A stretch of DNA of 64,000 bases from Sulfurimonas sp. HSL3-7 (GTDB taxonomy: Bacteria > Campylobacterota > Campylobacteria > Campylobacterales > Sulfurimonadaceae): NCBI RefSeq assembly GCF_039645985.1, contig NZ_CP147919.1:1550001-1614000 (forward strand), written 5' to 3'. Below the pieces are notes generated by a model that had not been told where the DNA came from, did not search any database, and was given only the letters and a program-made list of their open reading frames with translations. Both the position numbers and the translations under genes were made by a program. Shown here in pieces: positions 4,695 to 21,945 of the stretch (its first letter is position 1; each line of letters begins with the position of its first letter).

Positions 4695-5519
4695 TTAAAA
4701 ATGGTGTGCTTTACAGCAGTTTTTATAACTTCGACGTGCCGCTTTGGCAATAATTTGTAAAGGGGTACGGTTTTTAGCGGCAAGCCGTACGATCTTCTTA
4801 CGCTGACGCGGATCGAACCCTATCAGCATCTCATACTCTTCACCGCTGCAAAACAGTCTCTTATCTATCGGTTTAGTAAAGAGAAATCCTACCCTATTTA
4901 AGCTATGAAGCCGCTCAAGATCACTGCCCAGTCCGTCAGATATGTCCATACCGCATGTCAGCGACGGCGCGGTCTCTTCGATAAACGTGCGGCGAAGACT
5001 GAAATGGACAAATTTTGAGCGCGAATGGACCTTGCCGCCGCTAAGCAGGTAGCGCAGGTCCCTCGCACTTTTACCCACTTCACCGGTATAGGCGATCAGG
5101 TCCCCTTTTTTAAGCCCCTTGCGGTGCAGAGGACGATCGGCATGTGAAATAATAGTGATAGAGATGTCGAGCCTGCTGTTAGAGACGGTATCACCGCCGA
5201 TGATCTCTAGGCCGTATTCGCTTGCCGCAGCCTGAAAACCGGCATGCAGCTCGCGCATATCATGCAGGGTATAGTGTGACGGAATAGCGATACTCAAAAG
5301 CGCGTATTGGGGCGTTGCGTTCATTGCCACAGCATCAGAGATGTTGATCAACATCGACTTGTAGGCAATCTGTCGCAAGGTCATCCAACTTCGTTTAAAA
5401 TGAATATTTTCGCAAAAAGCATCGTTCGTATAGACCCGCTTGCCTATCAGTGCACCGTCATCACCAATACGATGGGAATGGTTTGAAAAAAGTTTAATAA
5501 AATAACTTTCAGTGTTCAC
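4695..5519 (-). CDS. thiL: Thiamine-monophosphate kinase
   Basis: 274 residues, a little short for ThiL (usually 300-330). Phosphorylates thiamine monophosphate to the diphosphate cofactor. Visible motifs: IGDDGALIG (ATP/Mg site), NISDAVAMNATP (the ISD[ILV]AAM block), IIGGDTVS and the late CGMDISDGLGSDL. The start is GTG at 5519. It is the first gene of thiL-truD-psd. The upstream 167 bp is shared with a divergent gene and should hold both promoters. The N-terminus is compact but all substrate-binding motifs are present. Confidence 0.9.
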   Translation of the reverse strand: MNTESYFIKLFSNHSHRIGDDGALIGKRVYTNDAFCENIHFKRSWMTLRQIAYKSMLINISDAVAMNATPQYALLSIAIPSHYTLHDMRELHAGFQAAASEYGLEIIGGDTVSNSRLDISITIISHADRPLHRKGLKKGDLIAYTGEVGKSARDLRYLLSGGKVHSRSKFVHFSLRRTFIEETAPSLTCGMDISDGLGSDLERLHSLNRVGFLFTKPIDKRLFCSGEEYEMLIGFDPRQRKKIVRLAAKNRTPLQIIAKAARRSYKNCCKAHHF

Positions 5520-5686
5520 ATCTTTATCTTTTTATTCGTATTTTATCCAAAATCGGCACGTTCATAACCAGGGGGTCTTGTTTTTCAAGGATAATATGAC
5601 TTTTTTTTAAGTCGCTATTAACCCCATTAACAATAAAATGCCCATAAACACAAAGTAACACTATCACTTAATAACAAAGGTTCACA

Positions 5687-6898
5687 ATGCGAATATCGAT
5701 TATCAAGATTTTTGCCATGCTAAAATCTTTTTTTTTGGTACTGCTCTTTTTAGCGATTCTTCTTACCGCCGCTATCCTGAGTGAATACTCTTCTTTCTAT
5801 AAATTAGAAAACCTGCAAAAAGAAAAAGAGCTGGCAACGACGATCTATACCCTGGGGCGAGACGACCTTGACCTTTCTATTATTCAGTATCGCGGGCAAA
5901 GCAGCATGCTTAAACATGAGCAGGCGTCGCTTCTAGACCTTTATGCGTACGATTTCATCGGTCAGTTTGTGCAAAGCGGGAACTATCACAATGAAGTCGC
6001 CAAACTCGACAATGCAGTTAAAAACTTCAACAAAAGCGCAGAACAATGGTACACCCAAGAACTTCTGTCTGACGAGGAGCTTCAGGTACGTCAATCAGAT
6101 CTGACACGAAAACATGACCTCCTCATAGCGCAGATCAACTCGATCATATCGCAGAATATGTTGTATGAAAAGAAACGATTTTACATACAGCAAGCGCTTA
6201 TTCTTGCCCTTCTCGGTTTAATCCTCTATATCTTTTTCTCGATGTTTCGTCGTCTGACGCAAGCTCAAGGTGACATTAATGCACTTTTTACGCTCGAGAA
6301 CGTTGAAGAGAAAAAATTTCAGAGCATCGAAGCCGATGCAATTGCCAAACGTATCAGCCGGAACACCAAACCTTCCACCACCCAGAATCCTGCTTACCTT
6401 GATGCCGTGACCGGGATAAACAACCACAAGGGTCTGATACATGAATTTTCAGAGAAAAAATCTCAAAAAATCGGTAATTACACGGCTATCTGTATTTTTG
6501 CCATTGACAGGTTAAATGAAATCGAACTGCAATACTCGCAAGATTTTCTGGAAGCTGTTTTGAAAAAAGTGGGTTTTATGCTCTCGCTATATCGCCAGCA
6601 TAATGACGTAATCGGCCGTTTGGACCACAACCAGTTTGCCATCATACTCTCCCGCCAGAGCAAAGCAGCTGCGTTTGGCGACTGTGAGCTCATACGAAAA
6701 AGCGTGGAAGATACACCGTTCAAAACCTCTGACGGTCAAAATCTTGCCATCACGCTAAGCGGCGGATTTGTTCAAAAGCTTTCAACACAGAGCCTTGAAG
6801 AAGTAATCACCAAAGCAAACAAAGTACTCGGCATGTCTATTCAGCATGGCGGCAACCGTATCGCGCAGCTGCGTGACAAAAGCACTTCGTTAAAGTAG
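5687..6898 (+). CDS. Membrane protein with degenerate GGDEF domain
   Basis: 403 residues: membrane helix 1 (about 10-30), a roughly 130-residue extracytoplasmic helical sensor region, helix 2 (about 166-185), a linker, and a C-terminal diguanylate-cyclase-like domain (about 235-400). In place of GRYGGDEFAIIL the active loop reads GRLDHNQFAIIL, so the GG(D/E)EF catalytic and metal ligands are gone. The LTGL-N-R entry motif is likewise VTGINNHKG. By analogy with other degenerate GGDEF proteins it probably senses or binds rather than makes c-di-GMP. Start ATG follows AACAAAGG. Monocistronic, with a stem-loop just after the stop. Confidence 0.8.
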   Translation: MRISIIKIFAMLKSFFLVLLFLAILLTAAILSEYSSFYKLENLQKEKELATTIYTLGRDDLDLSIIQYRGQSSMLKHEQASLLDLYAYDFIGQFVQSGNYHNEVAKLDNAVKNFNKSAEQWYTQELLSDEELQVRQSDLTRKHDLLIAQINSIISQNMLYEKKRFYIQQALILALLGLILYIFFSMFRRLTQAQGDINALFTLENVEEKKFQSIEADAIAKRISRNTKPSTTQNPAYLDAVTGINNHKGLIHEFSEKKSQKIGNYTAICIFAIDRLNEIELQYSQDFLEAVLKKVGFMLSLYRQHNDVIGRLDHNQFAIILSRQSKAAAFGDCELIRKSVEDTPFKTSDGQNLAITLSGGFVQKLSTQSLEEVITKANKVLGMSIQHGGNRIAQLRDKSTSLK

Positions 6899-6903
6899 CG
6901 CTC

Positions 6904-6921
6904 AGCCGTATGAGTACGGCT
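6904..6921 (+). terminator. Stem-loop after the degenerate GGDEF gene
   Basis: Perfect 7-bp stem AGCCGTA/TACGGCT with a 4-base loop, 6 bases after the stop codon; a T6 run occurs about 14 bases later. It is a plausible intrinsic terminator separating this gene from sdhABE, although the T-run is not immediately adjacent. Confidence 0.5.
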
Positions 6922-7023
6922 GTTATTGCTACATTTTTTCCCACTCCGCCTAAACTTCCCGCAAAAAAGTGTAACTTTACGTCACTATTTTTCTCTTTAA
7001 CCATAGAAAAGAATTTGAAACGC

Positions 7024-7029
7024 TATAAT
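7024..7029 (+). promoter_or_regulatory. -10 box of the sdhABE operon
   Basis: TATAAT inside CGCTATAATCG, 37 bases before the sdhA ATG. There is no good -35 at 17 bases, as is common for sigma-70 promoters in Campylobacterota. The expected start lies about 30 bases upstream of sdhA, whose ribosome site is GAAGGAC. Confidence 0.5.
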
Positions 7030-7066
7030 CGATTTTTATTATGTACACTCTATTGAAGGACGGTTA

Positions 7067-8779
7067 ATGAGTATTACCATTCATACCTATGATGCAGTAA
7101 TTGTCGGGGCCGGTTTAGCCGGTAACGCGGCTGCCCGCGAACTACAAAAAGCTGGCAAAAAAGTTGCAGTCATTACTAAACTCCACCCGCTTCGCTCGCA
7201 CTCAGGTGCTGCGCAAGGCGGTGTCAATGCTGCTTTCAGCGATGAAGACAGTGTTGAGCTGCATGAATTTGACACGGTCAAAGGTGCTGACTACCTGGCA
7301 GACCAGGATGCAGTTGAGTTCATGTGTAAGAACGCACCGGAGACGATCCGCTGGGCAGAGCGTATGGGTGCCGTGTTCAGCCGCCAGGAAAACGGCATGA
7401 TCGCACAGCGTCCTTTCGGCGGACAGTCATCGCCGCGCGCCTGTTACGCAAAAGACCGTACCGGTCTGACACTGCTGCAGACGATGTATGAGCAGGCGTA
7501 CCGCGAGGGCGTTGAGTTCTGGGATGAGTACTACGCAGCCGATATCCTTTATGAAGACGGCAAAGCGTACGGTGTTGTCGCTTTCAATATCCGCAATATG
7601 GAAAAAGTGATCTTCAATGCCAAATCGGTCATGTTCGCCACAGGCGGTTACGCCCGTTCATTCAAGATCAATTCAAATGCCCACGCCAATACCGGTGACG
7701 GCCTCTCTATCGTTGCACGTCACGGCCTTCCTTTGGAAGATATGGAGTTTGTACAGTTTCACCCGTCGGGCCTTTCGGGCAACGGTGTTCTCATCTCTGA
7801 AGCGGCTCGCGGAGAAGGCGGTCGTCTTTTCAACTCAGAGGGCGAACGTTTTATGGAGAAATATGCGCCTAACGCGATGGAGCTTGCTTCACGCGATGTC
7901 GTTGCGCGTGCGATCATCCAGGAGATCCGTGAAGGCCGTGGTGTCGGTCCGCGTAAAGATGCGGTCTATATCGATCTTACCCACCTTGGTGCCGATCTTA
8001 TTATGGAACGTCTGCCGGAACTTCGCGATCTTGCGATCACCTTCCTTGGACTTGACATGATCAAAGAGCCGATCCTTATCTCTGCGACAGCGCACTACTC
8101 GATGGGCGGTATTCCTTGCGACATCGACGGTCATGTCCGCAAAAACAATACCGAGTTCGTAGAAGGTTTCTACGCTGCCGGTGAATGTTCGTGTGTAAGT
8201 GTACACGGTGCGAACCGTCTCGGTGCCAACTCGGTACTCGAAGCGATGCTTTTCGGCCGTTTCGTCGGTAAGTCTATGGTCAAAGACCTTGACGGTATCG
8301 AGCTTAAAGTGGCGACGGAAGCAGATGCCGCGCGTATGAACGCCGAGATCGAATGGGTTCTTAACAACAACGGTACAGAGACTGTTCCGGGTCTTCGTGA
8401 AGAGCTTCAACAGAGCATGACGGACAATGCCGGTGTTTTCCGTACGGAAGAGACGTTGACAGAACAGGTCAAGATTCTCAAGGAACTGCGTAAGCGCTAC
8501 AAAAACATCCGTATTGACGACAAGTCCAAGATCTACAACACGGAGCTTCAGGAAGCGATCGAATTCGGCCACATGCTTGACTACTCTCTCTTTATCGTAG
8601 AGAGTGCATTGGCACGTAAAGAGAGCCGCGGTGCCCACTACCGTGAAGACTTCACTACACGTGATGACGAAAATTTCCTTAAACACACCATGGCCTACAT
8701 GGACGAAGAAGGCAATATCACACTTGACTACATGGATGTCGTACTCGGCAAACATGAACTTAAAGCAAGATCATACTAA
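7067..8779 (+). CDS. sdhA: Fumarate reductase / succinate dehydrogenase flavoprotein subunit (SdhABE/MfrABE type)
   Basis: 570 residues. Catalytic subunit interconverting fumarate and succinate. The N-terminal Rossmann motif is [13 protein letters not shown]. His45 in [11 protein letters not shown] is the residue that covalently holds FAD in the family. [19 protein letters not shown] and [13 protein letters not shown] form the dicarboxylate site. There is no Tat signal peptide, unlike Wolinella MfrA, so a cytoplasmic-facing enzyme is inferred. It is followed 9 bp later by the iron-sulfur subunit and then an HdrB-like subunit. That set identifies the non-classical complex without a cytochrome b subunit. 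The direction in vivo (fumarate reduction with methylmenaquinol, or succinate oxidation) cannot be told from sequence. Confidence 0.92.
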
Positions 8780-8788
8780 GGAGACGAC

Positions 8789-9772
8789 GTGAATAACAAC
8801 TCTATTACAACCAAAGATGTCACGTTCAAAGTCTTTCGTTTCAATTCCGAGACGGATTATCTTCCGACGTACAAAGAGTACAAGATGGAGGTCACCTCTG
8901 AAGAGGTCGTTCTTGACATCCTGAACCGCATCAAGTGGGATTTCGACGGCTCGTTCTCATACCGTCGCAGCTGCCGTCACGGTATCTGCGGGGCATGTGC
9001 GATGAAAGTCAACGGTAAAGCAACACTGGCCTGTAAAGTCAACATGCACGAGATGGTCGAGCTTTTCGGCAATGAGATCACGCTTGAGCCTTCAAGCATC
9101 AAACGTTCGGTCAAAGACTTCATCATCGACAAGTCCGACTTCTGGGAAAAACATGCGCAGGCAAAACCTTACCTCGAAGCCGAGATCGACGAAACACCGA
9201 CCATGGAGAACCTCGTATCTATCGAAGACAACGACAAGATCGAAGATGCCGATCTCTGTATTCAGTGTGGTGCCTGCCACTACTCATGCCCAGCGGTAGA
9301 GATCAACGAACAGTTTATGGGGCCGGCTGCCTTTGTCGCCGCCTACCGTTTCGGTATCGACACGCGTGACGATGCACAGGGTGAACGCCTCGATACAGTC
9401 GACACACCTGCACAGGGTGTCTGGGACTGTGTCAAATGTTACGAATGTGCAGACGCCTGTCCGAAAGAGATCAACCCGATCGACAAGATCACCAAACTGC
9501 ACAATATGGTCTTTGAAAGCGGCAAAGTACGCAAGAACGTCGCATCGCGCCATGCCGTCGGTTTTGCCCACTCTATCAAGAAACACGGTCTTCTTGACGA
9601 AGGTGAACTCGTACGTTACTCAGAAGGCAACATCGGCGTCCTGAAACATGTTCCGGTCGCCCTGCAGATGTTCAAAAAAGGGAAGATCGTCCTTCCTTGG
9701 AACATGCCGAAATCGGATAACCTTGATGAGATCCAGAAACTCATCAAATCATCTTCAACAACGAAATTCTAG
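8789..9772 (+). CDS. sdhB: Fumarate reductase / succinate dehydrogenase iron-sulfur subunit
   Basis: 327 residues, longer than classical SdhB (about 240) and matching the SdhE-linked type. The N-terminal plant-type ferredoxin domain binds [2Fe-2S] through CRHGICGACAM and a later LAC. The C-terminal helical domain binds two clusters through CIQCGACHYSCPA and CVKCYECADACPK. It carries electrons between the flavoprotein and the HdrB-like subunit. Start is GTG preceded by a strong AAGGAGA, 9 bp after the sdhA stop. Confidence 0.92.
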   Translation: MNNNSITTKDVTFKVFRFNSETDYLPTYKEYKMEVTSEEVVLDILNRIKWDFDGSFSYRRSCRHGICGACAMKVNGKATLACKVNMHEMVELFGNEITLEPSSIKRSVKDFIIDKSDFWEKHAQAKPYLEAEIDETPTMENLVSIEDNDKIEDADLCIQCGACHYSCPAVEINEQFMGPAAFVAAYRFGIDTRDDAQGERLDTVDTPAQGVWDCVKCYECADACPKEINPIDKITKLHNMVFESGKVRKNVASRHAVGFAHSIKKHGLLDEGELVRYSEGNIGVLKHVPVALQMFKKGKIVLPWNMPKSDNLDEIQKLIKSSSTTKF

Positions 9773-9780
9773 GAGCTGGT

Positions 9781-10662
9781 ATGTCTAAATTAAAATATGC
9801 CCTATTTACCGGTTGTACTGCCAAAGAGTCGACACCTGAACAGATGATGTCGACCCTGGCCGTTGCCGACAAACTCGGTATCGAACTTGTCGAACTTACA
9901 GAAGCCTCTTGCTGCGGTGCTTCCCACCTTCAAGACTATGATGATTTCCTTTCATTGGTTTTGAATGCCCGTAACATCGCCTATGCTGAAAAGCACGGTC
10001 TTACGATGGTGACCATCTGTAACACCTGTCAGCTTAACACGGCGATGACAAAACACCGTCTTGACAACAACGCCGAGCTTAAAGCGCGTGTCAACGAGAA
10101 ACTCGGCGAAGTCGGTCTTGAGTACAAAGGGACGTCACAGATCACCCACTTCCTCTACGCGATCATCGATGACTTCGGTCTTGACAAGATCAAAGAGATG
10201 GTCGTAAAGCCGCTGAGCCAGTTCAACATCGCACCGTTCTACGGCTGTCACAATATCCGCCCTTCTGAACTTCAGAACGAGACGCACAAGACACCTGAGA
10301 GCTCTTACAGACCGACCTCTCTTGATGACCTTATCATCGCTTGCGGCGGCACTAATGTTGATTATGAAGAGAAGAACAAGTGCTGTGGCTTCCATGCAGA
10401 GCTTCAGTCACCTAAAACAGCAGCAACCCTGACAGGGAATGCACTTGCCGGTGCAATGGACCAAAATGCAGACTGGATGGTCACGCCTTGTCCGCTTTGT
10501 CATCTCAAACTTGACACACAGTACCACCACGCTTCCGTAGCGATCGGCCGCGACGTCAAAATGCCGGTACTGCACATGCAGCAGATGGTTGGTCTTGCTC
10601 TCGGCTGTACGCCGGCAGAGCTTGGTCTGCAACACCACGTCTCCAACGTAGATTTCGTATAA
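9781..10662 (+). CDS. sdhE: SdhE/MfrE: HdrB-like cysteine-rich subunit of the fumarate reductase complex
   Basis: 293 residues. Two CCG-type cysteine-rich domains resembling heterodisulfide reductase subunit B: first SCCGASHL with a following CNTC, then GCHNIRP, KCCGFHAEL and CPLCHLKLD. In this complex type it replaces cytochrome b and membrane anchors and is thought to carry the quinone-reactive cluster through amphipathic membrane binding. ATG lies 8 bp after the sdhB stop with an AGGAG site. The last gene of the operon, followed by a UUCG stem-loop. Confidence 0.88.
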   Translation: MSKLKYALFTGCTAKESTPEQMMSTLAVADKLGIELVELTEASCCGASHLQDYDDFLSLVLNARNIAYAEKHGLTMVTICNTCQLNTAMTKHRLDNNAELKARVNEKLGEVGLEYKGTSQITHFLYAIIDDFGLDKIKEMVVKPLSQFNIAPFYGCHNIRPSELQNETHKTPESSYRPTSLDDLIIACGGTNVDYEEKNKCCGFHAELQSPKTAATLTGNALAGAMDQNADWMVTPCPLCHLKLDTQYHHASVAIGRDVKMPVLHMQQMVGLALGCTPAELGLQHHVSNVDFV

Positions 10663-13229: not shown

Positions 13230-14354
13230 TTGGAAGATCTAAGTTATTATGAAATTTTAGAAGTTTCACAAAATGCGGACAAATCAACGATTAAAAAAGC
13301 CTATCGAAAACTGGCAAAACAATACCACCCCGACCGCAATCCCGACGATGCGGAAGCCGAGGCAAAGTTCAAGTACTGCAACGAGGCGTACCAGGTTCTA
13401 AGCGACGACAACCAGCGCGCCATCTATGACCGTTACGGCAAAGAGGGGCTCCAGGGCGGTGCAGGCGGCGCAAGACATGGCGGCGGCTTCGGCGGCTTCG
13501 AAGACCTCGGCAGCATCTTCGAGGAGATGTTCGGCGGCGGTGCCGGCGGCGGACGCCGTTCGCGCGGACCGCAGGAGAAGTACCCGCTCGATATGGCGGT
13601 CGAGATCCGTCTGAGCTTCAAAGAGGCGATCTTCGGCTGCGAAAAAGAGGTCAAGTTTACCTATAAAAAAGCGTGCGAAAGCTGTAACGGGACCGGTGCG
13701 AAAGACGGCAACGTCAAGACCTGTAGCCAGTGCGGCGGCAAGGGCCAGGTCTATGTCCGCCAGGGCTTCATGACCTTCTCGCAGACCTGTCCGGTCTGTC
13801 ACGGCGAAGGGACGATGCCGGGCGAGAAGTGCCCCGACTGTAACGGCAAAGGGTACGAAGAGATCAAAGAGACCGTCACCGTCAAGGTCCCGGCCGGCGT
13901 CGACACCGAGAACCGTCTTCGAGTCTCGGGCAAAGGGAACATCGGCCGAAGTGGCAGCCGCGGCGACCTCTACGTCACCTTCATCGTCGAAGAGGACAAG
14001 ACCTTCATCCGTAACGGCAACGACGTCTATGTCGAAGTACCGGTCTTCTTCACCCAGGCGGTGATGGGCGAGACGATCAAGATACCGTCACTGACCGGCG
14101 AACTCGAGCTCAAGCTCGACATCGGCACGCGCGACAAGCAGCAGTTCACTTTCCGCGGCGAGGGTATCGAAGATGTCCACGGCCACGGCAAAGGCTCGCT
14201 GATCGCACAGGTCAGCCTCACCTACCCTAAAAAGCTGACGGACGACCAGTACGATCTCCTCGACCAGCTCCAGGAGAGCTTCGGCGTGGAGTCAAAACCG
14301 CACGAAAGCCTCTTCGAGTCCGCTTTCGACCGTGTCAAGGGCTGGTTCAAGTAA
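13230..14354 (+). CDS. dnaJ: Chaperone protein DnaJ
   Basis: 374 residues. Full DnaJ architecture: J domain with HPD (YHPDRNP, about residue 33), Gly/Phe-rich linker (about 75-118), four zinc repeats [24 protein letters not shown] and CPDCNGKG, and the C-terminal substrate domain. It stimulates DnaK ATPase and delivers unfolded clients. The start is TTG at 13230 after AAAGG. dnaK and grpE are not adjacent. The gene body is GC-rich, in sharp contrast to the AT-rich cassettes that follow. Confidence 0.95.
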
Positions 14355-14389: not shown

Positions 14390-14578
14390 GACTAAGTCCT
14401 AAAACCGGACTTAGCAGCACATTTTCGTTCAAATAAGTCCATTTCCATTACTTAGTACACATTGTTCATACCTACAATTCCGCATTGATTCTACTTCAAA
14501 TACCGCAACCAGCATTAAAATCATATTTTTTTACAATTTTTCATATGTTCTGCTAAGTCCTATTTTAAGCCTTAGTCG
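14390..14578. repeat. Non-coding 189-bp element bounded by imperfect 29-bp inverted repeats
   Basis: The left arm (14390-14418) and right arm (14550-14578) are reverse complements at 24 of 29 positions; both contain GGACTTAG/CTAAGTCC. Each arm is itself partly palindromic, for example CTAAGTCC-7 nt-GGACTTAG at 14392-14414. A further TAAGTCC (14434) and ACTTAG (14450) lie inside. There is no ORF. It lies between dnaJ and the first cassette. It could be a MITE-like insertion, a dnaJ terminator plus repeat, or part of an attI-like recombination platform; the sequence alone does not decide. Confidence 0.45.
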
Positions 14579-14601
14579 TATAAAATGTGCACCAATAAAT
14601 A

Positions 14602-14786
14602 GTTGTACGTTTCCGCGCAGCGAAAACGTACAACGGCCGGGCTGAGCACTGAACGTGCCACCAACCAATTGTCGTTCTCCGCTACGCTACGAACAACAAT
14701 TGGCAGGAGTCACACACCAAGCCACTATCCAGAAATCAGCAAGCTGATTTATGAAAAGTGACTTACTGGTGCTCAGCCCGGCCGTT
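14602..14786 (+). repeat. ORF-less 185-bp cassette repeat, copy 1
   Basis: First of three identical copies. It begins with an 11-bp inverted repeat (GTTGTACGTTT ... AAACGTACAAC, 14602-14634). An 18-bp GC-rich outer stem follows, AACGGCCGGGCTGAGCAC at its left and GTGCTCAGCCCGGCCGTT at its right, enclosing two hairpins (CCAATTGTCGTTC/GAACAACAATTGG and AAATCAGC-AA-GCTGATTT). The layout is that of a cassette made almost only of a long attC (about 160 bp). The only internal frame is a 16-codon ATG frame crossing its 3' end. Unlike copies 2 and 3 it is not preceded by an attC, so this G^TT may be the attI-side end of the array. Confidence 0.85.
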
Positions 14787-14797
14787 AAGTTCACAAA

Positions 14798-15154
14798 ATG
14801 AAAAAATACAGATTATTAGCAAAACTCTTTCTTGGATTAATTCTACTTGGGCTTCTATGTTTTCAGAGTGCTTTGTATTACGGAAAATCACGAAATACAA
14901 ATGCAGAAGAATCAATGAAATTTTACGTAAAAGAATTAACAGCTTACAAAAAAAGGGAGGGACACTATCCAAGCAGCATTAAGGACATTGCCAATCCACA
15001 TAAAATGGATAAGTTATTTTATCTGTTCCCAACAAGCGAAATAATATATAAGCCTTTGGGTGGTAAATACATTATATACTTCATAGAGTTCCCATTTGGA
15101 CCGGGGCAAGTATATTCCAGTGCAACAGGAGAATGGACTTATGAAGAAATATAA
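14798..15154 (+). CDS. Cassette-encoded small membrane-anchored protein
   Basis: 118 residues. An N-terminal membrane helix (about 8-27, LAKLFLGLILLGLLCFQSA) precedes a short periplasmic domain ending PFGPGQVYSSATGEWTYEEI. The single N-terminal helix followed by a region like KFYVKELTAYKKREGHYPSSI recalls pseudopilin-type proteins. That is only a resemblance. No Shine-Dalgarno precedes the ATG, which lies 14 bases after the cassette breakpoint. Its own attC follows 3 bases after the stop. AT-rich codons mark it as foreign to the flanking chromosome. Confidence 0.6.
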   Translation: MKKYRLLAKLFLGLILLGLLCFQSALYYGKSRNTNAEESMKFYVKELTAYKKREGHYPSSIKDIANPHKMDKLFYLFPTSEIIYKPLGGKYIIYFIEFPFGPGQVYSSATGEWTYEEI

Positions 15155-15157
15155 AGC

Positions 15158-15226
15158 ACTTAACAAATCAGTGGAGCCAATAAATTACCCTACGGGAAAT
15201 TTATTGGCTCATTTTAAACGTTATGC
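15158..15226 (+). other. attC site of the 118-aa cassette
   Basis: R'' ACTTAAC (15158-15164) and R' GTTATGC (15220-15226) enclose the stem GAGCCAATAAATT ... AAATTTATTGGCTC. ACTTAAC is the reverse complement of the cassette's first bases GTTAAGT at 14784, so this attC belongs to the cassette. Length 69 bp, normal for attC. Confidence 0.8.
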
Positions 15227-15238
15227 AAAAGGAAATTA

Positions 15239-16240
15239 ATGAAAAACATCATCTTAATAATAGTTTTTGTTTTGTTTTTTGAATCTCAATCTAAGTCAGA
15301 ACTTTTGGGATTCAACTATGAATGTTTACATGTTGGAACCAATGGAATAACTCAAAAGTACAAAGAAGTTTATGAAGGTGAAACTGTTCATCTCTTTATT
15401 GGGAGTGAAGAAGGTAAAAATGTTGGAGAGAAAAAATATTTCTTTAATGGTTCTGAACTGAAATTAATCAATAAAAAGCCAAATGCTTATGAATATGATG
15501 CAAAAATGCATACTTCTGATCATAAGATTGCATATGTTACTAATTACTCATATGATAGTTTCCCGCAAGACTTTCGTATAAATATTGTAGAGGAAGGACT
15601 TTTATATGATTCTGTTGAATATTATAATTGTTCGAGGAAAAAAGAAATTGATTTAGACAATTTTTTTAAGCAACTAAAATCAAATACTCTTCCTTTTATT
15701 GGTAAAGCCACCTTTAACTTTTCGGGTGGGAATGGCACACAAGAATATATTGAAATCAAAGGAAATAGCGATATCGACTTAGGAAATTGTGGTGTATTTG
15801 GATGTAGCTCATATTACACTGGTAAATATGAATCGGTTATTGAAAATTACTCATTTATAGCTGATGCAGTGCTATGGGTAGATGAGACGGGTAAAATCAG
15901 AAATAAGTGTGATGAATGGGGAGTAGAGAGTGATAAAAATCTCCCATGCAAGCAAAAACTTTCTTTCAATTATAGAGTGGATACAAAAACGGGCGAAGTA
16001 TATATTAATCAGGATATCTTTGATTCATACGCTTACCAAATTCTTGGGGATGAGTATGAGACTTCTTCCGAAGGAAAGATTTTATGGAAGACATCTGATC
16101 TCGTTCAAAAAAGAGACAACCATTCCCAAAAGATCTATTGTATAAAAAATAAAAATATTTGTACAAGCGAAAAAGAAATAGTAGACAGCTTCAAAAAAGA
16201 AAAAGGGCTATCAAACAAACTGGACTATAAGATCAAATAG
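15239..16240 (+). CDS. Cassette-encoded exported protein of unknown function
   Basis: 333 residues with a signal peptide (MKNIILIIVFVLFFESQS). The mature part is rich in aromatic and charged residues and has paired cysteines (CGVFGC, CIKNKNIC). ATG follows AAAAGGAAATTA, one of the few good ribosome sites in the array. I recognise no domain. The cassette's attC has a 5' core (AACTAAC) that does not match its own start (GTTATGC), suggesting a fused cassette. Confidence 0.6.
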   Translation: MKNIILIIVFVLFFESQSKSELLGFNYECLHVGTNGITQKYKEVYEGETVHLFIGSEEGKNVGEKKYFFNGSELKLINKKPNAYEYDAKMHTSDHKIAYVTNYSYDSFPQDFRINIVEEGLLYDSVEYYNCSRKKEIDLDNFFKQLKSNTLPFIGKATFNFSGGNGTQEYIEIKGNSDIDLGNCGVFGCSSYYTGKYESVIENYSFIADAVLWVDETGKIRNKCDEWGVESDKNLPCKQKLSFNYRVDTKTGEVYINQDIFDSYAYQILGDEYETSSEGKILWKTSDLVQKRDNHSQKIYCIKNKNICTSEKEIVDSFKKEKGLSNKLDYKIK

Positions 16241-16267: not shown

Positions 16268-16333
16268 AACTAACAACTCATCTCACATAAATAGATGCCA
16301 ACCGGCATGTATTTATGAACTTAAACGTTAGGC
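16268..16333 (+). other. attC site of the 333-aa cassette (core mismatch)
   Basis: R'' AACTAAC (16268-16274) and R' GTTAGGC (16327-16333) with a stem CATAAATA-G-ATGCC-AACC-GGCAT-G-TATTTATG. The R'' would pair with a cassette beginning GTTAGTT, which is how the cassette at 18452 begins, not with this one (GTTATGC). The attC itself looks intact. Confidence 0.7.
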
Positions 16334-16353
16334 CAATGAAGGAGTAATATATC

Positions 16354-18216
16354 TTGTCAAGATTTATATCACCTCCAATAAATCAATTTGAAAAACTGCG
16401 TCAACCACTTACTGATGGTGAACGAATTGTATTTAATCTTTTTAATGATCACTTACCAATTGAATGGGAAATCTATGTACAGCCCCATCTTAATGGGCTA
16501 CGTCCTGACTTTGTTCTTTTACACCCAAAAGTAGGAATTGCTGTTTTTGAAGTAAAAGACTGGAATCTACAAGCAATGAAATACAGTGTTATTGAACGTA
16601 TGGGCAAATCACCCGTACTAGTTGGCGAAAAGGATGGAAAGCAATTCTCATTACAGAGTGAAAACCCAATAGAAAAAATATATAGGTACAAACAGGAAAT
16701 TCACGAATTGTACTGTCCTAGAATTGACGGTAAAGCTGGATTCGCTGCTATCACAGCCGGGGTCATATTTCCTTTTAGTTCAGAAAGTTCGATAAGAAAT
16801 CTTTTTTCTATGAGTTTAAGTTACCGAGGAATGGATCAATGGCCACAATACAATCCATTAACAGGTGTAGATTCTGTCCAATCTGGAAATATAAAATCTA
16901 TATTTCCTGAAAGTGTCAGAAAATACTCAAAATTCATGAACGATGATCTAGCAAAGGATTTGAGAAATTGGTTAGTTGAACCTGATTTTGCTACAACACA
17001 GAGACAGTCACTTGAGCTTGATCGAACACAACTATCATTTGTTAAATCAAGAACTGAATCAGGTTATCGTCGGATAAAGGGGCCTGCAGGGTCAGGAAAA
17101 TCTCTCATATTAGCTTCAAGAGCTGCTGAGTTGCTCGGTGAAGGAAAAGAGGTACTTGTTGTAACATTTAATATTACACTACTTCATTATCTGATGGATG
17201 TTTCAGTTCGTTGGCCACAATCAGGTGGGAAGACACGTAAAGATATTACATGGCTCAATTTCCATTTCTGGTGCAAAAGAGTATGTCAGGAAAATGATTG
17301 TGAAGAAGAGTATAAAGCTCTTTGGTCAGACGATAAGAATGTAAATAAAGTTCTAAGCATTGATTTACCAAATCTTGTCACTTTAATTCTCGATGACCCT
17401 TATTGCGTCACAAAAAAATATGATGCAGTATTAGTTGATGAAGGCCAGGACTTCATGCCTGGTTGGTGGAATGTTTTGAGAAAGGTCTGCAAAGAAGATG
17501 GCGAAATGCTCCTTGTTGCAGATGCAACTCAGGACGTTTATGGTACTGCAAATTCATGGACAGATGAGGCAATGATCGGAGCGGGGTTTCCAGGTGGTAA
17601 ATGGGCTGAACTTAAAATTAGTTATCGACTACCGACGCTGGCTCTTGAATATTGTCGAAAATTTGCAGAACAGTTTTTGCCAAAAGAAAGTGTAAATTTA
17701 CCCATGCCACCACAAGATGAATTAGATCTTTTTCCTTGCACACTCAAATGGGTACATACAAAAATGGAATTTGCAGCTAAAGTATGTCAAGAAGAGTTGT
17801 TTTCACTAGCAATCAATGCAGAACCAGACCTCTTATCTATACCTGATTTAACATTTCTAGCTGACACCAATAAACGAGGTATCGCTGTAGTTTCCGAACT
17901 AGGAGCCAAGGGAGTTAAATCATGCCATACATTTTCTGAAGAGGCTAGTGAGTCAAGAAGAAAAAAAATGGGCTTTTATATGGGAGATGCGCGTATCAAG
18001 GCAACGACACTTCATAGTTTTAAAGGTTGGGAGTCAAGAGCCATTGTGATTTTTATTGGACAATCAGCAGACAAGAAATCATTGGCTCTTATTTATACTG
18101 GATTAACACGTTTGAAAAAACACACAGAGGGAAGTTACTTAACTATTGTTTCGTGTGCAGATGAATTAATGCCATATGGCAAAACATGGCCAAAGTATAT
18201 TGAAAAGATGGCCTAA
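16354..18216 (+). CDS. Cassette-encoded NERD nuclease-helicase protein
   Basis: 620 residues. The N-terminal NERD domain (nuclease-related, PD-(D/E)XK fold) shows RPDFVLLHP with D52 and the catalytic-type FEVKDW (E66, K68). An SF1 UvrD-like helicase follows: Walker A GPAGSGKS (243-250), VLVDEGQDF (Walker B), ADATQDVYG, KISYRLP, then TTLHSFKGWESRAIVIF and YTGLTRLKK near the C-terminus. It should bind and degrade or unwind DNA. Single-chain nuclease-helicases of this kind (for example staphylococcal Nhi) act against phage, so a defence role is a reasonable inference. Start is TTG at 16354, 8 bases after AAGGAG. The largest cassette in the array; its attC begins inside the last codons. Confidence 0.8.
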   Translation: MSRFISPPINQFEKLRQPLTDGERIVFNLFNDHLPIEWEIYVQPHLNGLRPDFVLLHPKVGIAVFEVKDWNLQAMKYSVIERMGKSPVLVGEKDGKQFSLQSENPIEKIYRYKQEIHELYCPRIDGKAGFAAITAGVIFPFSSESSIRNLFSMSLSYRGMDQWPQYNPLTGVDSVQSGNIKSIFPESVRKYSKFMNDDLAKDLRNWLVEPDFATTQRQSLELDRTQLSFVKSRTESGYRRIKGPAGSGKSLILASRAAELLGEGKEVLVVTFNITLLHYLMDVSVRWPQSGGKTRKDITWLNFHFWCKRVCQENDCEEEYKALWSDDKNVNKVLSIDLPNLVTLILDDPYCVTKKYDAVLVDEGQDFMPGWWNVLRKVCKEDGEMLLVADATQDVYGTANSWTDEAMIGAGFPGGKWAELKISYRLPTLALEYCRKFAEQFLPKESVNLPMPPQDELDLFPCTLKWVHTKMEFAAKVCQEELFSLAINAEPDLLSIPDLTFLADTNKRGIAVVSELGAKGVKSCHTFSEEASESRRKKMGFYMGDARIKATTLHSFKGWESRAIVIFIGQSADKKSLALIYTGLTRLKKHTEGSYLTIVSCADELMPYGKTWPKYIEKMA

Positions 18217-18276
18217 CAAAGCAGAGGAGCCAATAAGTCACCTACGGCGACTTATTGCTCATTTCAAACGTTGTAC
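18211..18276 (+). other. attC site of the NERD-helicase cassette
   Basis: R'' GCCTAAC (18211-18217) overlaps the stop codon of the gene. R' is GTTGTAC (18270-18276), and the stem is GAGCCAATAAGTC ... GACTTATTGCTC. GCCTAAC is the exact complement of the cassette's start GTTAGGC. A canonical, apparently functional site. Confidence 0.85.
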
Positions 18277-18454
18277 GTTTCCGCGCAGCGAAAACGTACA
18301 ACGGCCGGGCTGAGCACTGAACGTGCCACCAACCAATTGTCGTTCTCCGCTACGCTACGAACAACAATTGGCAGGAGTCACACACCAAGCCACTATCCAG
18401 AAATCAGCAAGCTGATTTATGAAAAGTGACTTACTGGTGCTCAGCCCGGCCGTT
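18270..18454 (+). repeat. ORF-less 185-bp cassette repeat, copy 2
   Basis: Base-for-base identical to the copy at 14602 across 185 bp. It is bounded on the left by the R' core of the NERD cassette's attC and on the right by the next breakpoint (GTTAGTT). Sequence diverges immediately outside both breakpoints, as expected for a cassette moved by site-specific recombination rather than a transposon with target duplications. Confidence 0.85.
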
Positions 18455-18481
18455 AGTTGACAAAATAAAAAGGAGTTGTTC

Positions 18482-18880
18482 TTGAAAATCTTATTCGTAG
18501 GCTTATTTATTATGATTACATCAGCTATAGGGAATCCATCATATGTTGCAAAGTGCCAATTGTTAAATATAACTGATCATTATACAGATGAAGTAAATAC
18601 TAAGTATGCTAAAAACTCACAATATGATTTGACGCTTATATTTAATGATGGTAAAGGAACTGGTAATATGGATGATACTATAACTGTTGTTCCTAAAAAA
18701 GGTGAAAAACTAGAGGCTCATATTGTTAGCCCAAGGGGTTATGTAGATATATTTTTTCCAATAAAAAAACCTAATACTAAAGATCCCTTTACTTATGGAC
18801 TTTTGCCAAATGGAGACCTTGTAATGATATCTCCATTAATAAAAATGAAGTATCAGTGCAAAAAACTAGATAAAAACTAA
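18482..18880 (+). CDS. Cassette-encoded small exported protein
   Basis: 132 residues from the TTG at 18482, 6 bases after AAAGGAG; an upstream TTG at 18476 touches the ribosome site and is unlikely. The signal peptide (xKILFVGLFIMITSAIGNP) is followed by a small domain of mainly beta-type sequence with two cysteines, one near each end (VAKCQLL, KYQCKKL), possibly a disulfide. No recognised family. The attC after it is degraded. Confidence 0.55.
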   Translation: MKILFVGLFIMITSAIGNPSYVAKCQLLNITDHYTDEVNTKYAKNSQYDLTLIFNDGKGTGNMDDTITVVPKKGEKLEAHIVSPRGYVDIFFPIKKPNTKDPFTYGLLPNGDLVMISPLIKMKYQCKKLDKN

Positions 18881-18920
18881 TATAAATAAGGCAAATTATC
18901 ACTCACGACAAACGTTATAT
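18875..18920 (+). other. Degenerate attC of the 132-aa cassette
   Basis: Expected R'' AACTAAC is AACTAAT (18875-18881). The right half (AAATTATCACTCACGAC, then AAACGTTATAT) closely matches the right half of the attC at 20425-20494, but the left arm is missing. The stem cannot form normally, so the two flanking genes may now move as one unit. Confidence 0.5.
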
Positions 18921-18935
18921 TGCCTAGGAGAATGC

Positions 18936-19574
18936 ATGAGTAAAACAACATCGGACGATCCTTTATTAGAGTGGAATCGCTTAAATATAGAAAATACCGA
19001 ACAAGGCTTCACATCCGCTTTGTTTCATAGCCTTGCTGAAACTTCTCCGTTAGTTGATAAATTTTCAATTTGGCTACTCGCAGGCACCGGTGCAACTGGG
19101 GCTCTACTCATTACACAGATCAAATCTATACTGCCTTACTTGTCTGTTCATGGCTACAAAGCATGCTTAATTATACTAGTCATATCAGCGGTCACAGGCT
19201 TCATTGCGAAGTATTATTCACTCCGATGCAATATACAGAACAATGTGCAAGCGAAGCTTTCTGAGTTGTCGAAGCCGGTCTTTGACAAGCATAAAGAAGA
19301 TAAAGATAAAATTCTAGAATATGCCAATCAAAGGGGTATTGAGATTCAAACAGAAATTAATTTTGAAAACGTAATCAATGAAATCTCAAAACCATTTCCA
19401 TTTTGGGTAAAGTGGCTTATAGCTCGCAAGATCAATAAATCCTCTGGTGAGCGCCAAGCAGGTTTTCATATAGCTATCAAAGCCTATACATCACAGCTGC
19501 GTTGGACATTAATACAATCAGTTTTGTTTTTATTATTTATATCCACGGCGGCATGGTTTGCAAATGCAATATAA
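18936..19574 (+). CDS. Cassette-encoded membrane protein with three predicted helices
   Basis: 212 residues. Two membrane helices at about 44-62 and 73-93, a cytosolic stretch rich in Lys/Glu (about 100-170), and a third helix at the C-terminus (about 190-209). The topology resembles small 2TM/3TM effectors found next to sensing proteins in conflict systems, but I see no diagnostic motif. ATG follows CCTAGGAGAATGC. The stop codon lies inside the R'' core of its attC. Confidence 0.55.
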   Translation: MSKTTSDDPLLEWNRLNIENTEQGFTSALFHSLAETSPLVDKFSIWLLAGTGATGALLITQIKSILPYLSVHGYKACLIILVISAVTGFIAKYYSLRCNIQNNVQAKLSELSKPVFDKHKEDKDKILEYANQRGIEIQTEINFENVINEISKPFPFWVKWLIARKINKSSGERQAGFHIAIKAYTSQLRWTLIQSVLFLLFISTAAWFANAI

Positions 19575-19591
19575 CAAACCAAACGTTATGA
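19569..19591 (+). other. Collapsed 23-bp attC of the 212-aa cassette
   Basis: R'' ATATAAC (19569-19575) and R' GTTATGA (19585-19591) are separated by only 9 bases. R'' pairs exactly with the cassette start GTTATAT at 18914, so this is a true cassette junction whose whole L-box stem has been lost. Normal attC sites here are 66-70 bp. Confidence 0.6.
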
Positions 19592-19606
19592 ATCAAAGGA
19601 TAAAAA

Positions 19607-20407
19607 ATAGACAAAGAAACTAAATCAATACTAGAATTAATTGAAGCAGCAGAACTTGATTATACAAACTTAACAATTGAATTGATTGATTTAGTAAATT
19701 TTGAGTATTTTAATTTTCAAATTACTCCAAAAGAATATTTAAAGTTTGCAAAAGAAGATTTAAAAGATAATAGTAACAGAGCATTAATCAATGCATTATC
19801 AAATGCAAAAAGATCTATAGATTGTTTAATTGAAAGTACCTTAAAAGGCTTATCAATTAATATTGAAAATAATATTTCTCCAGAAGCTTTAAATTTTTGT
19901 AATAAAGTTCTTAATGGAAAAGATAAAGGTATTATGCCTAATACATTAAAGTTATTCAATGCTCTCGGTTTAGCTCCATCAATTTTAATTACTGAAGTAA
20001 GGTTTCTCCGAAACGTTATTGAACATGAATATAAATTACCAAAAAGAGAAGATGTAATAAGAGCTATTGAGGTAGCTGATTTATTAATAAACAGTGTAGA
20101 GTCAAAAAAAATAAAAAGTTGTGAGCTACTAATTACTGATAAGAGTTATAATAAAGGAATATTATTTGACTTATCTTATGAGTCAAATAGATTTAATTTA
20201 AATTCAGTAGAAATGCCAGATGCCACACATCTTAGTAGAAAGTCTTCTTATAGTTTTCATGGAGATGAATTAATATATTACTATTTTCTTCGGGCAATGA
20301 TAATTGCAGAACAAGATGAAGATGAGTTGTTTGAAGTTATTAAATTATTAATATCTGAGATAAAACCAACTCTTTCAATAAAACATATAAAGTGTAAAAT
20401 GCATTGA
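19607..20407 (+). CDS. Cassette-encoded HEPN-like protein (ATA start inferred)
   Basis: About 266 residues if translation begins at ATA 19607, 6 bases after AAAGGA. The first ordinary start codon in frame is TTG at 19682 (241 residues), which has no ribosome site. The 25 codons before that TTG read as good protein (xDKETKSILELIEAAELDYT), so an ATG-to-ATA change is likely. A helical domain ends with RFLRNVIEHEYKLP, containing R-x4-H (RNVIEH), the signature of HEPN RNase domains. Many HEPN proteins are toxins or defence RNases. No antitoxin partner such as MNT is adjacent. Very AT-rich. Confidence 0.55.
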   Translation: MDKETKSILELIEAAELDYTNLTIELIDLVNFEYFNFQITPKEYLKFAKEDLKDNSNRALINALSNAKRSIDCLIESTLKGLSINIENNISPEALNFCNKVLNGKDKGIMPNTLKLFNALGLAPSILITEVRFLRNVIEHEYKLPKREDVIRAIEVADLLINSVESKKIKSCELLITDKSYNKGILFDLSYESNRFNLNSVEMPDATHLSRKSSYSFHGDELIYYYFLRAMIIAEQDEDELFEVIKLLISEIKPTLSIKHIKCKMH

Positions 20408-20424
20408 TTATAAAATAGAAAGCT

Positions 20425-20494
20425 TCATAACAAATACGAGGAACGCAATAATTTACCACGAGCGGAAAATTATCGCTCACGACAAACGTTGTAC
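20425..20494 (+). other. attC site of the HEPN cassette
   Basis: R'' TCATAAC (20425-20431) pairs exactly with the cassette start GTTATGA at 19585. R' is GTTGTAC (20488-20494). The stem is GAGGAACGCAATAATTT against AAATTATCGCTC, with an asymmetric insertion. Confidence 0.75.
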
Positions 20495-20672
20495 GTTTCC
20501 GCGCAGCGAAAACGTACAACGGCCGGGCTGAGCACTGAACGTGCCACCAACCAATTGTCGTTCTCCGCTACGCTACGAACAACAATTGGCAGGAGTCACA
20601 CACCAAGCCACTATCCAGAAATCAGCAAGCTGATTTATGAAAAGTGACTTACTGGTGCTCAGCCCGGCCGTT
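20488..20672 (+). repeat. ORF-less 185-bp cassette repeat, copy 3
   Basis: Identical to copies 1 and 2. Right breakpoint GTTAAGT, as at copy 1. The three copies are in direct orientation, 3.7 and 2.2 kb apart, and could drive deletion of the intervening cassettes by homologous recombination. Confidence 0.85.
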
Positions 20673-20691
20673 AAGTTCATAAAGGGATTAA

Positions 20692-21087
20692 ATGTCTTTG
20701 CAATACGATGGATGGTGTAGAAGAATTGATCTTAGTTTTAGATCTAGATATCCATATATAAATACAAGAATATTCAAATTAAATGATCATGAATTTCAAA
20801 TTTTTGTAGCTGAGGACATCAAAGATTTTTCCGAATTGCAAAAGATATTCAACCATGAAATAAAGTTTGTAACTGCCCCTGTAAAACTCGTAAATCGTAA
20901 ACCAAGTAATTATATTACGGAACTAAAATGTATAGAAGTCAAAGATATACCATCAAAGTTTGAAGGTTTACCTTTAACAATGAATCAAATCTATAACCAT
21001 ATTTTTTCTATACACCCAAAAATCAAAATAAGTGGAATCAACGAAGATCATCAAATTACACCCCAGGGGTTGAATCTCCACTTTTGA
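20692..21087 (+). CDS. Last cassette gene, 3' end replaced by transposon sequence
   Basis: 131 residues: N-terminal SLQYDGWCRRIDLSFRSRYPY and a predominantly beta pattern; unknown function. ATG follows AAAGGG. The last 11 codons (TPQGLNLHF region, from 21054) are the terminal inverted repeat of the transposon, so the native C-terminus and its attC are missing. The product is therefore probably a truncated chimera. Confidence 0.5.
   Translation: MSLQYDGWCRRIDLSFRSRYPYINTRIFKLNDHEFQIFVAEDIKDFSELQKIFNHEIKFVTAPVKLVNRKPSNYITELKCIEVKDIPSKFEGLPLTMNQIYNHIFSIHPKIKISGINEDHQITPQGLNLHF
21054..21085 (-). repeat. Left 32-bp terminal repeat of the RAYT element
   Basis: AATTACACCCCAGGGG followed by TTGAATCTCCACTTTT. 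Perfect complement of the right end. On the minus strand it also encodes the last residues of the transposase C-terminal domain (KSGDSTPGV, then TAA). Confidence 0.8.
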
Positions 21088-21187
21088 TGACTTTGGAGAT
21101 GAGCGATTTCGAAAGGTTTAGATAGCGTGCGATGTCTGCCTGGGTATATCCGTCCAGATAGGCATTGACAATCGCTGTGTTCCTTTC
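21056..21187 (-). pseudogene. C-terminal helix-turn-helix of the transposase, cut off by an amber codon
   Basis: Directly after the TAG stop (21188-21190) the same frame continues for 43 codons: ERNTAIVNAYLDGYTQADIA, then RYLNLSKSLISKVIKSG, ending DSTPGV and TAA at 21056. This is a clear helix-turn-helix of the sort found at the C-terminus of many RAYT transposases. The intact gene would encode about 260 residues. Either a nonsense mutation inactivated it, or amber read-through occurs. Confidence 0.7.
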
Positions 21188-21838
21188 CTAATTGCTCTGA
21201 ACTTCATAAAAATGTTCTTCAAAAGCTATGGAACAGCTTACCCTAAAGCCCTTGTCGGTTTTCTCTATTTTTTCCTTCTGCATTTTTTTGAGAACATTCA
21301 TCTCTTCTTCTGATATCGGCACATCCAGCAGCTCTGTGAGTGTTTGCATGTCGAATTCTTTTATGAGGATCGATGCTTTGGAACAGGGATGATACGCTTT
21401 GGCATTTAGAAGAGATGCCGCCAAGGTAAAAGGGTATTCACCTACTCTTCCACATTTGCCCGCTTCAATAGGGTTATTCTCTATACAGCGTATAAGTGTA
21501 TAGAGATACGCTTCGGATGTTATATATTTGGATTTATAGCGATCTTGCCAGAGGTGACCGCTTCGCTGATACCTTTTGTTGAAATACTGGGCATAGTTGG
21601 CATTGACTATCCGCATGCATGTCGAGAGATTCTCTTTTTGGGTTTCGACAAGCAGATGGTAGTGATTATCCATAAGGCAGTAGTCATGCAGCGTTACGTG
21701 ATGTATTTGTGCCATTTTATTAAAGATCTTTAAAAACATCTCTTTGTCTGTCGGAGTATTAAAAACGTCGCAACGGTTTACCCCTCTGTTAATGATGTGA
21801 TGGTAACCCGCTAGATCTATTCGTGGACGTGTAGGCAT
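21188..21838 (-). CDS. REP-associated tyrosine transposase (Y1/HUH), truncated by an amber stop
   Basis: 216 residues from the ATG at 21838, which follows AGGAG; the frame is open five codons further. The Y1 transposase domain starts RPRIDLAGYHHIINRGV. The metal-binding HUH motif is DNHYHLLVE (H-Y-H), and the helix with the nucleophilic Tyr is NANYAQYFNKRYQRSGHLW. It cuts single-stranded DNA at REP-like hairpins. The predicted DNA-binding C-terminus is separated by TAG. Codon use resembles the chromosome more than the cassettes do. Confidence 0.85.
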   Translation of the reverse strand: MPTRPRIDLAGYHHIINRGVNRCDVFNTPTDKEMFLKIFNKMAQIHHVTLHDYCLMDNHYHLLVETQKENLSTCMRIVNANYAQYFNKRYQRSGHLWQDRYKSKYITSEAYLYTLIRCIENNPIEAGKCGRVGEYPFTLAASLLNAKAYHPCSKASILIKEFDMQTLTELLDVPISEEEMNVLKKMQKEKIEKTDKGFRVSCSIAFEEHFYEVQSN

Positions 21839-21913
21839 GCAATCTCCTGTCACAAATAAAATAGATTACAATAATTTTAAACTACTACAGGTAGACTATG
21901 CCGTATTGCCATA

Positions 21914-21945
21914 AAAAGTGGAGATTCAACCCCTGGGGTGTAATT
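21914..21945 (+). repeat. Right 32-bp terminal repeat of the RAYT element
   Basis: Perfect inverted copy of 21054-21085, followed at once by a second partial copy (see the tandem repeat). Confidence 0.8.

Follow-up and report, generated by a model that had tools for sequence, protein, structure and literature searches.

A NERD-UvrD nuclease-helicase gene carried as an integron cassette in Sulfurimonas, probably as a defence gene

Why does a large nuclease-helicase gene ride in an integron, and is its product likely to act in defence against phages? The gene lies in Sulfurimonas sp. HSL3-7, in a stretch of 64,000 nucleotides (contig NZ_CP147919.1, positions 1,550,001-1,614,000) that we call the window and cite in its own numbering. 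Our main reading, to which we give a probability of roughly two in three, is of a promoterless integron cassette whose single-chain product most likely defends its host against phages or other DNA that enters the cell.

The NERD-UvrD open reading frame (16354-18216, + strand) is intact, starts with TTG and encodes 620 amino acids. An earlier note on this DNA had described a single-chain protein with NERD and UvrD-type helicase parts, and the Pfam search that it had proposed found NERD (PF08378) at residues 21-120 (E 3e-7; 31.3 bits, cut-off 22.1), together with the UvrD helicase (PF00580; E 4e-10; 40.3 bits, cut-off 23). The features of the gene are:

16340-16344, + strand: likely ribosome binding site, AGGAG
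16414-16713, + strand: NERD nuclease domain, residues 21-120, with E23, D52, E66 and K68
17005-18213, + strand: SF1A (UvrD-type) helicase core, residues about 218-620, from Pfam and the structure model

NERD has the PD-(D/E)XK nuclease fold, and D52, E66, K68 and E23, which we take to be the catalytic residues of that fold in this protein, are invariant in an alignment of 19 sequences, including relatives of as little as 26% identity. The same 19 of 19 holds for K249 (Walker A), D362-E363 (Walker B), Q393, R425, K557-G558 and R586. The statement that the nuclease (D52, E66, K68) and Walker motifs are intact was therefore right, numbering included. An AlphaFold2 model of the protein is of middling confidence (pLDDT 75.6, pTM 0.59), and we therefore claim no fine geometry. 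In this model residues ~218-620 align to UvrD (2is6_B; Z 26.6, rmsd 4.4 over 371 residues), followed by AddA (Z 23.2), AdnA (Z 21.9) and RecB (Z 19.1), and Dna2 is among the Foldseek matches; the comparison bears on the helicase part and hardly probes the N-terminal part. A likeness to SLFN11/14 (Z ~19) was dropped, as its rmsd was 14-19, and a single-sequence search of solved structures gave no match to the protein. Purifying selection on the gene is strong: in comparisons with relatives of another phylum, dN/dS is 0.05 and 0.074 (pS 0.67 and 0.65). Two further NERD-domain genes were seen in the host genome, at 2574647-2574979 (- strand) and 350930-351082 (+ strand), in a family scan that was not exhaustive, since the NERD-UvrD gene itself was absent from its list.

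The gene is one cargo in a ten-cassette array, with three gene-less members, between dnaJ (which ends at 14354) and a Y1 transposase gene (21188-21853, - strand), and its cassette is the fourth from attI:

14390-14608, + strand: attI-like region at the head of the array, duplicating the host's spacer between intI and attI
14603-14784, + strand: gene-less cassette, copy 1; nearly all of its 182 bp are attC
14785-15220, + strand: cassette with a 118-aa ORF (14798-15154) of no family; attC 15158-15226, 54.6 bits
15221-16327, + strand: cassette whose 333-aa ORF (15239-16240) matched no family above cut-off; attC 16268-16333
16328-18270, + strand: NERD-UvrD cassette, 1,943 bp, with attC flanks and complementary ends
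18211-18276, + strand: attC of the NERD-UvrD cassette, 54.2 bits, E 4e-10
18271-18452, + strand: gene-less cassette, copy 2, identical to copy 1
18453-18914, + strand: cassette with a 134-aa ORF (18476-18880); attC apparently truncated, by eye
18915-19585, + strand: cassette with a 212-aa ORF (18936-19574); attC down to about 20 nt, by eye
19586-20488, + strand: cassette with a 241-aa ORF (19682-20407); attC 20425-20494, 42.8 bits
20489-20670, + strand: gene-less cassette, copy 3, identical to copies 1 and 2
20671-21089, + strand: last cassette, with a 131-aa ORF; 3' end lost beside the Y1 transposase unit

That the gene is cassette cargo, as the note had proposed, is borne out by attC sites on both sides and by complementary ends: the first seven bases of the cassette, GTTAGGC, pair with the R'' box GCCTAAC at 7/7 positions, as did the ends of 2 of 258 control ORFs. 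To score the sites we trained a covariance model on 15 attC sites, all taken from the host's own integron and none adjoining the NERD-UvrD gene; the upstream site (16268-16333) scored 28.8 bits (E 1.2e-3). The model recognizes attC of the host type, and other types would escape it. We took it for host-type sites because two home-made scanners, one strict and one relaxed, missed or over-called sites outside that type. Over 20 sources, matches came from the window and from a second Sulfurimonas locus (L010) only; in the window the model picked up four + strand sites, one of which it reported on the - strand too.

How might such a gene be expressed? The leader ahead of its start codon is ~26 nt long, so short that the gene is probably promoterless; in four relatives with a readable boundary the leader is 26-45 nt. 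A promoter call near the start of the array was dropped, since a scan there found 8 sigma-70-like sites against a shuffle mean of 8.5, which is chance level. We infer that transcription could start at the attI side or in the gene-less cassettes. Within the genome, the three identical 182-bp gene-less cassettes are confined to this array, and each has an 18-nt perfect inverted repeat and a 155-nt hairpin. Gene-less cassettes of Vibrio often bear promoters, according to the part of the source available (PMC11014356), and those described here may serve as hubs for promoters or for recombination.

At the other end of the array, the Y1 (IS200-type) transposase unit (21054-21945) is bounded by 36-nt inverted repeats that are 97% complementary, and the last cassette may owe the loss of its attC to this unit. 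The 241-aa cassette protein has an R-N-x3-H motif within a helical stretch that, judged by eye, resembles HEPN; the protein matched no Pfam family above cut-off, and its single-sequence fold had a pLDDT of 49.

Where the integrase is encoded bears on how the array could be loaded. The host genome is one contig of 2.87 Mb with a single integron integrase over the TIGR02249 cut-off (408.8 bits), ~0.52 Mb from the array and adjoined by a long array of its own. It could serve the NERD-UvrD array in trans. The attI-like region (14390-14608) matches the sequence next to this integrase at 73% identity over 228 bp and was recovered in a genome-wide search as well; its cassette insertion point is G14602/T14603. 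Full or partial attI copies lie at that site and at genome positions 1044560, 1522640, 1307713 and 1105116, the last three being partial (80% over 92 bp at 1.5226 Mb, 30 bp at 1.3077 Mb and 78% over 73 bp at 1.105 Mb). Cassettes or attC sites were found near 14390-14608, 1044560, 1522640 and 1307713, and clusters of host-type attC at ~1.03-1.04, 1.31, 1.45, 1.52, 1.565-1.570 and 1.85 Mb. The dispersed attI copies would allow a direct test of whether one integrase can stock several arrays around the chromosome.

Is cassette carriage peculiar to this strain? When 84,980 species genomes were scanned, seven relatives (L008-L014) turned up, four of them in genomes with an integron integrase over cut-off. 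The closest are in two gammaproteobacterial metagenome-assembled genomes (L008, 85% identity; L009, 80%), followed by PS1-clade L012 (67-69%), Sulfurimonas L010 (66-67%), Pseudomonas L011 (64%) and the remoter L013 (55%) and L014 (44-46%). In the class of L009, 3 of 369 sampled genomes match at E <=1e-80, L009 itself included. The wider PADLOC family is present in 23 of 398 genomes in the phylum of one further genome (G403), where its members are mostly ~25% identical to the window protein, with two at 61%. In IMG/VR, 59 loci matched, seven of them across almost the whole protein, and the one close match is L079 (contig 3300040744_000459).

What is new is the setting of the nine sequences at or above ~61% identity. 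Six (the window, L008, L009, L010, L011 and L079) have cassette settings, three strong and three probable, and the other three (L012, L160 and L161) stand beside genes that match PADLOC models. The cassette settings span Campylobacterota, Gammaproteobacteria and one probable prophage. Besides the window, the strong cases are L010, with an attC of 48.5 bits and ends that pair 7/7, and L009, with several attC-like hairpins in the contig and a 7/7 pair near its ends. The probable case L008 starts with GTTAGGC and has a hairpin on its 3' side (as stable in 3 of 300 shuffles), its R'' box having lost AAC, and L011 has hairpins on either side that are weak (z -1.6 and -0.9). In L079 the leader CGTTGGACCGCAAGG agrees with that of L011 at 14 of 15 positions and a 3' attC-like hairpin follows (2 of 500 shuffles). 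Among more distant relatives, neither the host-type covariance model nor the 7/7 end test found an attC.

The probable prophage is L079, which has a phage-type integrase and repressors; from 5031 to 10582 the order is an FRG gene (PDC-S15), the NERD-UvrD cassette and the phage-type integrase. Beyond the integrase we noted, by eye, a ribonucleotide reductase gene of host type. A phage origin of the NERD-UvrD gene was considered and set aside, with no match among 50,697 phage records.

In the tree, the window protein groups with L008 and L009 (support 100/97) and campylobacterotal L010 falls outside, which fits transfer between phyla. Such a transfer would not be very recent, because the synonymous sites are near saturation. 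The latest tree adds L160 and L161, both missing from two earlier trees that gave the same grouping; in it, the reading frame is wrong for L166 and L153 (8 and 3 stops read as X) and their placement is void. A strictly cassette-only clade was rejected, as the non-cassette L160 and L161 (61%) fall inside the group of nine, with the forks there open. Cassette and non-cassette states therefore seem to alternate.

The link to defence comes from a family match and from neighbours. The protein matches C3a187 (PDLC01087, "NERD+UvrD"), a candidate defence family of PADLOC-DB 2.0.0, with E 1.2e-150 and 501 bits, over its full length (residues 1-617 to model positions 1-558 of 559). The note's suggestion that the gene "would add a single-gene system" was thus overstated: NERD+UvrD is already modelled in PADLOC, and as a family the system is not new.

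The three close non-cassette kin all adjoin PADLOC-model genes. L161 has HEC-06-, PDC-S26-, PDC-S12- and PDC-S02/ZorD-like genes within ~5 kb, L160 has PDC-M55A- and GajB-like genes within ~9 kb, and L012 adjoins a fragment of a type II methyltransferase. In L011, a GmrSD-like gene (HEC-05) follows ~4 kb downstream. More distant kin occur on plasmids. On an A. pittii plasmid (L034:4942-17229) the order is hsdM-hsdS, NERD-UvrD, hsdR and then a complete GajA-GajB pair, an A. baumannii plasmid has the same hsd restriction operon with SIR2, and others lie beside SIR2-HerA, cas1/cas2 or Abi_C. Four plasmid contexts (L028, L029, L030 and L036) showed no clear defence neighbour.

Two controls bear on these neighbourhoods. 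On nine plasmids (L030 was dropped as a near-copy of L029), the 7-8 kb around the target were compared with a control stretch of the same plasmid, the L028 stretch being shorter as the record ends there. We counted annotated restriction, CRISPR, Abi and named anti-phage genes and excluded toxin-antitoxin pairs on both sides. Defence genes were present in 6/9 targets and 1/9 controls (p ~0.05, by hand), or, in a weaker contrast with the two Acinetobacter targets merged as one lineage, in 5/8 and 1/8. The chromosomal control (12 of 23 regions) gave 93 against 6 matched PADLOC families, with 108 against 104 neighbour proteins, and the gain in proteins may be modest because the tool counts families, not proteins. 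Taken by association, from the PADLOC match and from the cassettes, plasmids, prophage and defence islands in which it occurs, an anti-phage role is likely. Close relatives sit on cassettes of unrelated bacteria, in a prophage or among anti-virus genes, and the gene is thus probably a mobile anti-virus gene.

Several known systems resemble this one in part. C3a187 has the same two domains in one chain, many of its other members being only ~25% identical, and the window protein represents a distinct sub-branch. Gabija (GajA and GajB) likewise combines a nuclease with a UvrD-type helicase, and a 40%-identical relative of the window protein adjoins a GajA-GajB pair. In contrast to Gabija, the nuclease here is of the NERD type and fused into one chain, GajB models match the protein in pieces only (best 28.8 bits), and the neighbouring cassette ORFs tested gave no OLD/TOPRIM match of GajA type. 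Nhi and Nhi-like immunity share the nuclease-helicase concept, and NERD is listed for Nhi-like in a review table, in the portion of that review available (PMC10952713). The PADLOC Nhi model matched a stretch of only 38 residues (E 4e-4).

Defence genes on integron cassettes were rightly called a recent theme and are already in print; Darracq, Getz and Kieffer reportedly described integron-encoded defence cassettes in Vibrio and in mobile integrons in 2025. Those are likewise defence-type genes carried as integron cargo, whereas here the host belongs to Campylobacterota, the attI is an orphan, the cargo is a large nuclease-helicase and the gene has close kin on cassettes of another phylum. Cassette 11 of Vibrio rotiferianus is NERD cargo as well, a 257-aa protein with NERD and a zinc finger but without the helicase, and the available part of its description (PMC3262767) discusses it for pleiotropic growth effects and not for phage defence. 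Our literature search, largely without subscription papers, found no paper under C3a187's PADLOC name and no test of a single-chain NERD-UvrD protein. As a single, probably promoterless gene, NERD-UvrD can be tested alone.

How might the protein act? UvrD-type SF1A helicases move 3' to 5' on single strands. We infer that the protein has nuclease and helicase activity, that DNA is its substrate and that it recognizes ends or gaps. The UvrD-type motor could enter replicating or injected DNA at free ends or single-stranded gaps, where the host's own repair helicase leaves it uncovered. Driven by ATP, it would run along one strand and feed the DNA into the N-terminal NERD (PD-(D/E)XK) domain, which would cut it. 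Related ideas have been proposed for Gabija, as an attack on linear DNA left uncovered by RecBCD (PMC12407980), and for Nhi, as a response to phage SSB-DNA complexes (PMC10732053), each as given in the accessible part of its source.

The same architecture would suit a DNA-repair nuclease-helicase of the AddAB, AdnAB or Dna2 type that processes broken DNA, became mobile by chance and has no role in defence. The helicase model has UvrD, AddA, AdnA and RecB as its nearest structural neighbours and Dna2 among its Foldseek matches, as such an enzyme might. Repair enzymes, however, are usually core genes. The spread of this gene is very patchy: at an identity of at least 67% it occurs in 2 of 397 sampled Campylobacterota genomes (the host and the Sulfurimonas of L010). 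It also rides on cassettes, plasmids and a probable prophage and sits in defence-gene islands, and we consider a pure repair role unlikely. Just as doubtful, in our judgement, is that the protein's main targets are competing mobile elements (plasmids, ICEs or satellites) and not lytic phages, or that it protects its own carrier. That idea draws on the relatives found on 53 plasmid records and in the prophage-type contig, adjoining the integrase, but the neighbouring type I restriction-modification, Gabija, SIR2-HerA and CRISPR systems hit phages as well as plasmids. Because those systems act on both, context cannot separate anti-phage from anti-plasmid action.

It would be a third alternative, and a very improbable one, that the cassette is a silent passenger, stored in HSL3-7 and neither expressed nor selected there. 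Its fourth place from attI, 26-nt leader, TTG start and lack of an above-chance promoter would suit a stored cassette. The intact reading frame and a dN/dS of 0.05-0.07 across phyla argue against it and indicate past expression and selection of the gene in the lineage overall, if not in HSL3-7.

In kind, the cassette is ordinary, a known candidate family as integron cargo within an existing theme. What is unusual is the orphan attI setting and a distribution that takes in two phyla, ordinary defence islands and probably a prophage. If the role in defence is true, a little-studied candidate family would be tied to integrons as a vehicle between phyla and into a prophage. With confidence a little short of even, we postulate that the lineage is an exchangeable promoterless defence cassette that has crossed between Campylobacterota and Gammaproteobacteria, settled in a temperate phage beside its integrase and shifted between cassettes and ordinary defence islands, and that the host has a dispersed integron, in which several attI-headed arrays lacking an integrase could be loaded in trans by one distant enzyme.

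Defence-like cargo is in the minority among the cassettes of the host's integron: 2 of 10 match a PADLOC model. In its main integron we observed cassettes for a NucC-like PD-DExK protein and a mad2-like protein (L015:9599-10375 and L015:12594-13331, both - strand), the former matching the PD_DExK model with E 2.6e-24 and NucC with E 3.4e-15, and the latter having E 6.6e-18.
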